Shown piece by piece: positions 36,714-40,527 of a stretch of 64,000 nt of DNA. The stretch is from Gallaecimonas mangrovi (GTDB lineage: Bacteria > Pseudomonadota > Gammaproteobacteria > Enterobacterales > Gallaecimonadaceae). The notes below the pieces were generated by a model. That model did no database searches, had not been told where the DNA came from, and saw nothing but the letters and a program-made list of their open reading frames with translations. The position numbers and the translations under genes are program-made. The first letter of the stretch is position 1. The number at the start of each line of letters is the position of its first letter. The stretch lies in NCBI RefSeq assembly GCF_003367375.1, contig NZ_CP031416.1:2611501-2675500 (forward strand), given 5' to 3'.

Positions 36714-37094
36714 ATGGACCAACTGCCCTTTTCCATCAATGCCGAAGCTTTGCTGGTTTTCTCGTTGCTGCTGTTAGTGGGATACCTGCTGATAAAACAG
36801 CTTTTTTGCGTTTTTGTTGTGCGCTTTCATAAAGGCCGGGTGCGGGTAACAAAAGGCACTGTGCCCCCCGATTTTTTACGTGCATGCAAACGCTTGGCCG
36901 GCAACAGCCAAATAAAGGGCGCGGTTTTTGGCTACAAAACCCGCCTGGGTATTCAACTGTCGTTTTCGGCAAATTTTCCGCCACTGCTAAAAGACAGGGT
37001 GTTGTCGGCATTTCCCCACGAACGCATGGAACGCAGCTTTTTTCGCCGAAACATCAAGGAAGAACAAAAGCAGCGCCATAAAGATGGGATTTAA
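36714..37094 (+). CDS. DUF3634-type membrane-anchored protein
   Basis: 126 residues. An N-terminal hydrophobic segment (about 12-32) precedes a basic cytoplasmic domain; VRFHKGRVRVTKGTVPPDFLRACKRL matches the pattern of DUF3634 proteins of Vibrio and Shewanella, function unknown. It is monocistronic, closed by a bidirectional terminator. Confidence 0.65.
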   Translation: MDQLPFSINAEALLVFSLLLLVGYLLIKQLFCVFVVRFHKGRVRVTKGTVPPDFLRACKRLAGNSQIKGAVFGYKTRLGIQLSFSANFPPLLKDRVLSAFPHERMERSFFRRNIKEEQKQRHKDGI

Positions 37095-37135: not shown

Positions 37136-40100
37136 CTATTGCTGGCAAACACTGCCAGTAATGGCCGATGCCTGGCCTGTGCCTTGGCCAACAAAGCCGA
37201 ACTGCACCGTTTGACCGGGTTCCACTTTGCGGTTCCAGTCAAGGTGGCTGGCACTGTAGGGGCCGGAGCCAGACAGCGTGGCATTCCAGCTACCGGTAAT
37301 GGTGGAACCGTCAGTAAAGGACCAGCCCACTTGCCAACCATAGATGGGGCTGGAAGAGGTATTGGTGATGCTCACCGCCCCCTGGAAGCCGCCATCCCAA
37401 CTATTGGTTAGCGCATAACTGCACTGGGCTTGCGGCACCTGGGCGTCATCGTCGCCGCTATCACCGCTATCGCTGGGCACAGCGCAGATGTCACCGCTCA
37501 CCACAGTCGCCCGGCCATCACCGCTGGCAGTAAAGCCCACCTCTACCGAGTCGCCCGGGGCGATAGTGCTATTCCAGCTCAGATTGGTGGCGGTATAGGG
37601 GCCGCTACCACTGACATCGCCCCCCCAAGCACCCGACACTTGGCTGCCGTCTTTGTATCCCCATTTGACCTGCCAGCCACTGATGGGGCTGTCAGAGGTG
37701 TTGGTGATACGAATAGCGCCTTGGAAACCGCCCTGCCAGCTATTGGTAATGACGTGTTCACACATCGCCGGGGCTTTGGTTACCGGCCATTTCAGCGCCA
37801 CAACCACAGGGTCGTGGTCAGAGGAACTGAAAGGTCCTTCTGATTTAACGAGGCTGCCGCTGTAGTCATCTTCATAGGTCAGCAGGTTACTTTCAGCCGA
37901 GTTGATGTGCCAATCAGCAACAGCCGCTACTTTGCCAGCCAAGCTTTCGGTGGCAATCGCTTGGTCGAGCCTGCCAACCATACCGTCGTACTGATAGGAA
38001 TAGCTGTGGGTATCAACCAGGTTAACCAGCCCGTAGCCTTGGGTAACGGTGTGGCCAGCACTTTCATACAGCGTGGCCTCACGGGTGTCACCAAAGTAGG
38101 TGTCGTGAGCGGTTTTAATATCGCGATCCAGGCTTGGGATCTGGGTCATTACCAGAATGGGATCTTCACTGCCGTAGGTATTAAAGTCGCCCAAAATTAA
38201 GGTTGGCGTAGCAGACGCCAGCACATGCTCGGCCAGGATACTGGCTTCGGTATTACGCAGCTCGTTACAGCTGCCCTGGCCACCTTCATCAACACCTTCT
38301 TCGTCTTCGGCGCAGCTTGAGCCTTTAGAGCGGAAGTGGTTAATGGCAACCCGGAAGGCATCACCTGCCACACTGCCGTCAACAACGCGCTTAAAGCTTT
38401 GCAAAATGCTGGGGCGGCCCCCATGGTGCACATCTTCGGTGCCGTCATCATCGACGGTTATCTGGTTTGGCATATCCAGAATATCCAGGTCGCCAACCGG
38501 GCTTACCATGGCAGGGCGATACAAAATGACCGAGGTCACCGCATCGGTACCCACAGTGCCACCATCGGCTGGCACTACTACCGCGTATTGCTTGTCTTCT
38601 GGCAGTTCATCGTTAAGGGCGGTAAGCAGGCTTTGAATGGCCGAATTTTCACCAAAGCCGTTATTTTCTACCTCAACAAGCCCCAATACGTCGGCATCAA
38701 TGGCTAAAAGCGCATTGACGATTTTGCTGCGCTGCAGCACAAAATCAGCCTCGGTAGTGGCACCGCGGTTAGTGCCTAAGGGGTTGGCGTCGCCACCGAC
38801 AGCATCATTGAAAAAGTTTTCAATGTTGAAGCTGGCAACACGCAAGTCACCTTCGGCCGTTAATACCGGCGCGGCGGTTCGGTCATCCAAGTGCACAAAG
38901 TCGCTTGCACTCAGGGTTTGATTATCCCCCACCACCAACCGGTAGTTGCTGTAGGAATAAGCCATAACGCCAGTGAGGTTAGTCACTCTGTCGGCCACCC
39001 GAATATAGCCTTGGGAAGCGTCGAAACCGGGGAAATAGGGAATAACGCCATTCGCCGGTTTGGCATCGGTATCAATGTAAAGGGTGCGGGCCGTATTACT
39101 GCTGGTCAGAGCCTCGGCTTCATCGGTTAGCGCCGGGTAAAGCTCGGTTGGCTGATAAAGAGGACCGCCGTAGGCCAGCATCATGTTATTGCGTGACGAG
39201 TCATAGTCGTAACTAAAAGGACGCGTCACTTGCATGTCGGAGCTGTCGGTTAGCGTCACCAACATTCCTTCGACTTTTTCCATAGAGCCCGCGACATCTT
39301 CAGGGTCGATGTTCAGCGGCGTGGCCTGAACGGCAGGCAGGTCATCGCTGGCCTTACCAAAGCTGTCCATCACAATTTCGGTGAAGTTGTAATACTCCTC
39401 GACCAGGCCTTGTACACAGACGGCATCGCCTACGGCAATGGAGCTGTCGGGGGCTGAGCCGGTGTAAACAAAGATACCGTCAGAGGTATTGGCGTTACCG
39501 TCACCGGCGCCGTCTTGCAAGAAAAAGCCCTTAAACAGGCCTGACACCACCTTCGTTACCCGCCCTTCGGTGATAACAGGTGCGTCGCTATAGTAGCTGC
39601 CGTCAGCCACCAGCGGCGAGCTGGCGCCGTCACCTTGAATACTGGGAATGGTTTGGTAGCCGTCGGTTGGACACACCAAACTGGCACTGTCATCGTCGCC
39701 ATCATCGCCTTCGCCGCTGCTATCACAGGCATCAAGGCCGGAGCAGCCCAGACCGTCAAAGGTGTCTTGGTCAAATTGCTGCCATTGGCTGAAATCAAAG
39801 GTCGTGGTAGCGCCGGCACTGGTGTCACGGCGTAGGGTGTGGTTTAGGGTAGAGATACTGCCGTCATCACTGGTGAAGGCACTGCCTGGGTCAACCCCGA
39901 TGGTGCCAATCACATCAACAATTTCGCCGTCTTTTTCTAAGGCCACGGCATCGTCACCATTAAAGTTGACGGAGCCAGAACGAATGTCAGCATTAATGCT
40001 GTCGTCAGCGCTGGTATGTGCAAGCACTAGGCTGGCGCCAGCGGCAAGCGTGCCGGATAAGGCAATGCGGGTACTGGTTGTACTGGCGCCGTTAAAGAAG

Positions 40101-40267
40101 ACGGCAACGTCCATCCCCTCCAGGCTTGCCGACTCAGAACCAGTATTGGTGATTTCAAGGGCCTTGTTGTAACTGCTGCCCTCCACGTACTCACTAAAGA
40201 GCACATCGGCGCTGGCGCATTGGCTTATTAATGCCAAGGTCGCCAACAAAGCGGTTTGTTTAAGCAT
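37136..40267 (-). CDS. Secreted ExeM/NucH-type nuclease with two C-terminal CBM2-like modules
   Basis: 1043 residues, probably exported then secreted. Signal peptide 1-20 (cleavage ASA-D); lamin-tail domain about 21-130; OB-fold about 229-330; endonuclease/exonuclease/phosphatase domain about 474-827 with SFNIENFF, VEVENNG, INHFRSKG, LGDFNTYG and SSDHDPVV, covering the usual catalytic Asn, Glu, His, Asp and His. It ends in two similar ~93-residue modules (836-928 and 949-1041), each starting and ending in Cys with three regularly placed Trp (NSWxGGFQGA, GWQV, L-W-N/D), the pattern of family 2 carbohydrate-binding modules. No GlyGly-CTERM sorting tail is seen, unlike many Shewanella homologues. 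Linkers are Ser/Asp-rich. An acidic loop (661-668) is Glu/Gly-rich. Confidence 0.85.
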   Translation of the reverse strand: MLKQTALLATLALISQCASADVLFSEYVEGSSYNKALEITNTGSESASLEGMDVAVFFNGASTTSTRIALSGTLAAGASLVLAHTSADDSINADIRSGSVNFNGDDAVALEKDGEIVDVIGTIGVDPGSAFTSDDGSISTLNHTLRRDTSAGATTTFDFSQWQQFDQDTFDGLGCSGLDACDSSGEGDDGDDDSASLVCPTDGYQTIPSIQGDGASSPLVADGSYYSDAPVITEGRVTKVVSGLFKGFFLQDGAGDGNANTSDGIFVYTGSAPDSSIAVGDAVCVQGLVEEYYNFTEIVMDSFGKASDDLPAVQATPLNIDPEDVAGSMEKVEGMLVTLTDSSDMQVTRPFSYDYDSSRNNMMLAYGGPLYQPTELYPALTDEAEALTSSNTARTLYIDTDAKPANGVIPYFPGFDASQGYIRVADRVTNLTGVMAYSYSNYRLVVGDNQTLSASDFVHLDDRTAAPVLTAEGDLRVASFNIENFFNDAVGGDANPLGTNRGATTEADFVLQRSKIVNALLAIDADVLGLVEVENNGFGENSAIQSLLTALNDELPEDKQYAVVVPADGGTVGTDAVTSVILYRPAMVSPVGDLDILDMPNQITVDDDGTEDVHHGGRPSILQSFKRVVDGSVAGDAFRVAINHFRSKGSSCAEDEEGVDEGGQGSCNELRNTEASILAEHVLASATPTLILGDFNTYGSEDPILVMTQIPSLDRDIKTAHDTYFGDTREATLYESAGHTVTQGYGLVNLVDTHSYSYQYDGMVGRLDQAIATESLAGKVAAVADWHINSAESNLLTYEDDYSGSLVKSEGPFSSSDHDPVVVALKWPVTKAPAMCEHVITNSWQGGFQGAIRITNTSDSPISGWQVKWGYKDGSQVSGAWGGDVSGSGPYTATNLSWNSTIAPGDSVEVGFTASGDGRATVVSGDICAVPSDSGDSGDDDAQVPQAQCSYALTNSWDGGFQGAVSITNTSSSPIYGWQVGWSFTDGSTITGSWNATLSGSGPYSASHLDWNRKVEPGQTVQFGFVGQGTGQASAITGSVCQQ

Positions 40268-40527
40268 GGTGTTTATCCTGTTAAATATTTTTATTCCTGC
40301 GCCGCCATTATCACAAAGAAACCTTTTTACAACACACAAGCAGCACTGCAACTTATTGATGCAGAGCCCATTTCTGTAAATTTGTGAAATAAATAAGGCT
40401 GGCAACGGTCTTTTTTAACATCGCTGTGTGACAACAGCGCGACACCCAAACACCCGCCGGTTTGAGGGGGACCCGTCCCCTATGCTAGGCTCAGCCCTTT
40501 AATCGCACCGAATATAGGGGTCACAAC

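Follow-up and report, generated by a model that had tools for sequence, protein, structure and literature searches.

An ExeM/NucH-type nuclease of Gallaecimonas that ends in two family 2 carbohydrate-binding modules, a candidate cellulose-tethered DNase

A 64,000-nucleotide stretch of the Gallaecimonas mangrovi genome (the window) encodes an ExeM/NucH-type nuclease of 1043 amino acids that ends in two family 2 carbohydrate-binding modules (CBM2). The CBM2 identity of the tail and the ExeM/NucH identity of the nuclease are both far beyond chance. We read the protein as an exported DNase whose tail appears to have been replaced by two type-A CBM2 modules in tandem, and which would be tethered to cellulose, plausibly that of the Bcs matrix made by the cell itself. 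The probability of this reading is roughly 0.55. Export, carbohydrate binding, the ligand, DNase activity and the biological role are what we infer from the sequence.

The gene lies on the minus strand at 37136..40267, as do all the parts described here. Its open reading frame reaches further, up to a TTG at 40405, and the ATG at 40267 was taken as the start. An apparent signal peptide (residues 1-20, 40208..40267) was recognized by eye, and the structure model places a helix of low confidence at residues 2-14. It is followed by a lamin tail domain (LTD; residues 18-122, 39902..40216; Pfam PF00932, E 3.3e-13) and by the OB region with the EEP nuclease core (residues 233-826, 37790..39571). CBM2 module 1 (residues 836-928, 37484..37762) and CBM2 module 2 (residues 949-1041, 37145..37423) are separated by an acidic linker rich in Ser, Gly and Asp (residues 929-948, 37424..37483). 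The segment 37136-37762 runs from residue 836 to the stop codon, and the coordinates and residue numbers that the original prediction gave for the modules were right. A search with a Pho box consensus found no match upstream of the gene, and the whole window held 4 matches against 3.26 expected.

The nuclease part matches the NCBIfam model ExeM_NucH_DNase (NF033681) with an E-value of 1.3e-159 and 532.6 bits, against a curated cut-off of 300, and the Pfam LTD and Exo_endo_phos models match it as well. The ExeM-GG model (NF033680) gave 743.9 bits, below its cut-off of 1300; the protein terminates in CBM2 and is without a GlyGly end. Residues E532, E534, H644, D694, N696, D817 and H818 are invariant in 34 family sequences, including that of Shewanella mangrovi. 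The nuclease ahead of the modules is thus complete, as had been predicted. In its structure model the block means range from 70 to 97, except at residues 1-20 and 171-200, and the PDB neighbours of the model have the EEP fold, among them CNOT6L, nocturnin, TDP2 and APE1. For the ExeM protein of Shewanella oneidensis, one study lists E521 and D822 as predicted metal contacts and H642, N699 and H823 as predicted phosphate contacts (PMC6085458). The window nuclease has the same order of LTD, OB/nuclease and EEP regions as ExeM of S. oneidensis MR-1 and Xds of Vibrio cholerae, with the corresponding EEP residues present. The difference is at the end: ExeM terminates in a hydrophobic anchor of the GlyGly-CTERM type, whereas the window nuclease terminates in two CBM2 modules. 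ExeM was located in the inner membrane fraction and not in the medium, and a Pseudomonas homologue is likewise without the anchor, according to the same study (PMC6085458). The G. mangrovi genome (G000; 4.07 Mb, a single contig) encodes GspD of type II secretion (553.6 bits against 351.35), which was the Gsp gene searched; substrates of this system carry no defining sequence signal.

The tail had been described beforehand as two tandem Cys-bounded modules of the CBM2 type, and the domain search agrees. Pfam CBM_2 (PF00553) matches two stretches with an E-value of 3.2e-52 and 175.5 bits, above its cut-off of 24. Each module alone matches the solved CBM2 structures 6f7e, 2rtt and 1exg, with best E-values of 2.8e-15 for module 1 and 3e-16 for module 2. 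The bounding cysteines are C836 and C928 in module 1 and C949 and C1041 in module 2, and the two modules are identical at 49 of 93 residues. In alignments to the CBM2 of Cellulomonas Cex (1exg), W844, W881 and W898 of module 1 and W957, W994 and W1011 of module 2 correspond to Trp17, Trp54 and Trp72, so that both modules have the three tryptophans by which CBM2a is recognized. A review describes these three residues of the Cellulomonas module as important in cellulose binding (PMC11272768). All six tryptophans are invariant in the proteins of the window, of a second Gallaecimonas genome (G002) and of S. mangrovi, and matching Trp motifs are found in a further Shewanella genome (G669). The Cex/Xyn10A module of Cellulomonas fimi is a Cys-bounded module of about 93 residues like those of the window, but it sits on a glycanase, whereas here two copies sit on a nuclease. 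The modules are of low confidence in the full-length structure model, where the nuclease part is good, and the tandem modelled alone, from an alignment of two rows, has a mean pLDDT of 48.9. This low confidence is probably due to the fact that only two aligned rows cover the modules. A chance or low-complexity resemblance to CBM2 is ruled out by the strength of the profile and solved-structure matches.

The tail differs within the genus at a single locus. All five Gallaecimonas genomes (G000-G004) have an ExeM/NucH match at one position, flanked by a GNAT gene on one side and a slyD-like gene on the other, and share more neighbours around it (gene names assigned by eye). CBM2 is present in two of the five, G000 and G002. 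The G002 protein aligns to the window protein through the modules to residue 1042, with 69% identity over 1045 columns. The proteins of G001, G003 and G004 align only as far as residues 829, 862 and 841, respectively, with 49-66% identity over the aligned part. These syntenic ExeM/NucH nucleases resemble that of the window but have a Calx-beta-like end and no CBM2; in G003 the assignment comes from a sub-threshold Pfam match (E 0.0035), and the tails of G001 and G004 resemble that domain by eye. An unrooted tree of eight neighbouring proteins sets G000 and G002 apart from G001, G003 and G004 with a support of 100, and one tail change therefore accounts for the pattern in the genus. Since CBM2 tails are rare, a gain of CBM2 is the likelier direction of this change. 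Two further observations concern this region. A 126-amino acid protein of no assigned family (window 36714-37094, plus strand) adjoins the nuclease gene; it keeps this position in four of the five genomes and is unmatched in G003. In G004, a second, shorter ExeM/NucH gene lies about 16 kb from the first (L009:1180-3165, G004:C8), with no LTD match and an end that resembles GlyGly-CTERM by eye.

The relatives have a variety of tails. By a simple rule of our own, 67 of 79 nuclease frames have a GlyGly-CTERM-like tail and 12 do not; these frames come from 78 of the best 80 of 146 loci in named genomes (L038 and L085 are absent), mostly from Vibrio, Aeromonas, Pseudoalteromonas and Photobacterium, so that 67/79 is no family-wide rate. 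One of the 12, L070, has a frame that stops before the matched stretch and looks interrupted. Other tails appear by eye to be PKD-like, Calx-beta-like or of other kinds, and Pfam places a C-terminal LTD, a phosphoesterase and a Por_Secre_tail on three plasmid-borne relatives. The original prediction had the modules standing in place of a sorting tail. This is borne out to the extent that the GlyGly-CTERM-like end is the commonest among these relatives, but the orthologues at the same locus have Calx-beta-like ends instead.

The pairing of CBM2 with this nuclease had been thought uncommon, and the survey bears this out with four distinct genomes as carriers. Besides the two Gallaecimonas genomes, these are S. 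mangrovi YQH10 (G252, L038) and G669, which have the same CBM2 tandem on a more distant nuclease. The nuclease end together with the tandem, as a whole profile, was found in 2 of 129 Shewanella genomes, in 1 of 369 genomes of the class sample (the window genome) and in 2 of 398 of the phylum sample; these samples and that of the order overlap. Among the 295 genomes of the order sample, 145 have a nuclease match and 15 a CBM2 match, and at least 3 have both in one gene, judged by position among the matches listed. The collected loci contain 129 nuclease frames, and the 13 that carry CBM2 are all redundant copies from the four carriers. Two genomes (G926 and G1016) hold both kinds of domain, and the single nuclease frame read in each is without CBM2. 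By Pfam, the G669 protein (1313 amino acids) contains Endonuclease I and CBM2 domains; the OB-EEP core gave no Pfam match at E 0.01 and was recognized by alignment to the window protein, with 40% identity over 862 columns. Its counterpart in S. mangrovi runs past the end of a contig. In the region L160 of another Shewanella genome (G763:C1 1010500-1026500) there are several CBM2 proteins, one of which has a CxxCH motif (by eye) and a terminal CBM2; none of the G763 loci gave a nuclease frame that carries CBM2.

Phyla beyond Pseudomonadota were covered through scans of named genomes, viral contigs, plasmids and phages. Both peptide patterns of the named-genome scan were taken from the nuclease part, and among the best 80 of 146 loci S. 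mangrovi alone matched the whole query. The viral contigs gave six pattern matches and no relative. Forty-five plasmid records matched, but no single place in any of them covered 80% of the query, and CBM2 was absent from the three records scanned among the 25 listed. Phages gave four partial matches. The phage-labelled records H26 (MT835709.1), H27 and H28 (Acinetobacter phage MD-2021a) and H29 (MT839447.1) each encode an ExeM/NucH-like protein that shares 30-35% identity with the window nuclease, and these records may be mislabelled bacterial contigs.

The modules have a history that is at least partly separate from that of the nuclease. Between the window and S. mangrovi proteins, the OB and EEP regions are identical at 200 of 539 residues (37.1%), and the modules at 58 of 93 (62.4%, module 1) and 59 of 93 (63.4%, module 2). 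This disparity and the module tree together point to the separation. The tree was built from 79 domain rows, which reduce to 55 distinct CBM2 modules with none removed for length, and the program warned that the columns are few. In it, module 2 of both genera forms one clade (support 97/94), and the nuclease modules group with the modules of Shewanella GH5 proteins and two others (99/96). The placement of module 1 is unsupported, and none of 200 bootstrap trees unites the eight nuclease modules as one clade; a single origin of the eight may nevertheless be compatible with the starred branches of the tree. The GH5 proteins in question are cellulases of S. mangrovi and G669 (L037 and L159), with a GH5 catalytic domain by Pfam and a tandem CBM2 like that of the window nuclease but with longer linkers. 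The GC3 values of module 1 (0.667) and module 2 (0.645), compared with a mean of 0.593 (sd 0.037, maximum 0.667) over 93-codon windows of residues 1-826, are not decisive for a foreign origin.

The genome that carries the nuclease also encodes cellulose synthesis. Its bcs operon includes BcsQ (186 bits against a cut-off of 157.85) and a 1441-amino acid frame whose first half matches CelA/BcsA (883.1 against 699.1) and whose second half is BcsB by Pfam (E 3.7e-159), the NCBIfam BcsB models remaining under their cut-offs. The operon also has a BcsC-like protein and a BcsZ-like endoglucanase, which score 340.9 and 150.4 bits, under their curated cut-offs of 858 and 299. The BcsA-BcsB fusion lies at L196:9186-13511 (G000:C1 3686185-3690510), preceded by BcsQ and followed by the BcsC-like and BcsZ-like genes. 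Two adjacent frames (L196:382-1760), some 6.6 kb upstream of bcsQ, resemble an IS4-type transposase that has been split; Nterm_IS4 matches the first, and the second was assigned by eye.

A frame of the size of fused BcsAB, 1444-1453 amino acids, is present in all four carriers, and these frames are 65-87% identical among themselves. BcsB is found in 6 of the 129 Shewanella genomes, including both carriers. The fused size occurs in exactly the two carriers, and the other four have BcsB frames of 752-786 amino acids. Fisher tests that treat the genomes as independent, although the carriers are related, give p = 0.0018 for carriers against BcsB and p = 0.00012 against the fused frame. The two Shewanella carriers are closely related (their BcsAB proteins are 86.6% identical), and the co-occurrence there may represent one event. 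A strict link is contradicted by G004, which has a fused BcsAB frame yet is without CBM2. In G001 and G003 there was no match to PF03552, the sole bcs profile searched there.

On the cellulose-tether reading, the nuclease would be exported by way of its signal peptide, perhaps through the type II system, and would leave the cell because it has no membrane anchor. The two type-A modules would then grip crystalline beta-1,4-glucan, and the EEP nuclease would cut extracellular DNA (eDNA) at cellulose, most plausibly inside the Bcs matrix that the bacterium seems equipped to produce. As a result, nucleotides and phosphate would be released, or the eDNA part of the matrix would be loosened. A genome-wide search showed that the two modules are the only CBM2 matches in G. 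mangrovi. We favour the cell's own cellulose on two grounds: these sole CBM2 modules occur alongside cellulose synthesis genes, and the tandem shares the company of fused BcsAB. More tentatively, with somewhat less than an even chance, the protein could be a matrix-addressed DNase that recognizes the cellulose of its own fused BcsAB synthase for local control of eDNA, its tandem having been acquired by nucleases of two genera and accompanying bcs operons of this type.

The main rival to the own-matrix reading is plant cellulose. The modules could tether the enzyme to exogenous plant cellulose or detritus, where trapped DNA and phosphate would be harvested, and the bcs operon would be coincidental. 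Type-A CBM2 modules are not expected to distinguish bacterial from plant cellulose, and the GH5 cellulases with tandem CBM2 in S. mangrovi and G669 point in the same direction. So do the sources of Gallaecimonas isolates, which one paper gives as intertidal sediment, seawater and a mangrove plant (PMC12539734). However, fused BcsAB is present in all four carriers, and a search of G. mangrovi for CBM2 alone gave no further CBM2 protein, which is a weak argument. We consider plant cellulose a possible but rather unlikely target.

Cellulose is favoured over chitin as the probable ligand, since G. mangrovi has a bcs operon and no GH18 match. Binding of the modules to chitin, with the nuclease acting on crustacean or fungal surfaces, would fit the close match to 2rtt, the CBM2 of a protein named ChiC, which we take to be chitin-binding, and the GH18 match in G002 of the same genus. 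GH18, the one chitin-related family searched, is nevertheless unmatched in three of the carriers (G. mangrovi, S. mangrovi and G669), and we regard chitin as improbable. Least probable of all is a neutral or structural swap, in which the family C-terminus serves as a promiscuous docking site, with CBM2 merely helping folding or export: the diversity of tails among relatives agrees with it, but the six binding-face tryptophans are kept in two genera and are not obviously needed by a purely structural domain.

Both protein families are known; the novelty lies in the joining of CBM2 to the nuclease, in the change of tail at one locus and in the association with bcs. No natural fusion of this kind was found in the portion of the literature covered by a partial survey. 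If the cellulose-tether reading is true, the protein would be an uncommon natural case of a carbohydrate-binding module that steers an enzyme acting on a non-carbohydrate substrate. It would also link two polymers of the biofilm matrix, cellulose and eDNA, through one protein. Gallaecimonas offers a natural comparison, in which one gene at one locus occurs with and without the CBM2 modules.
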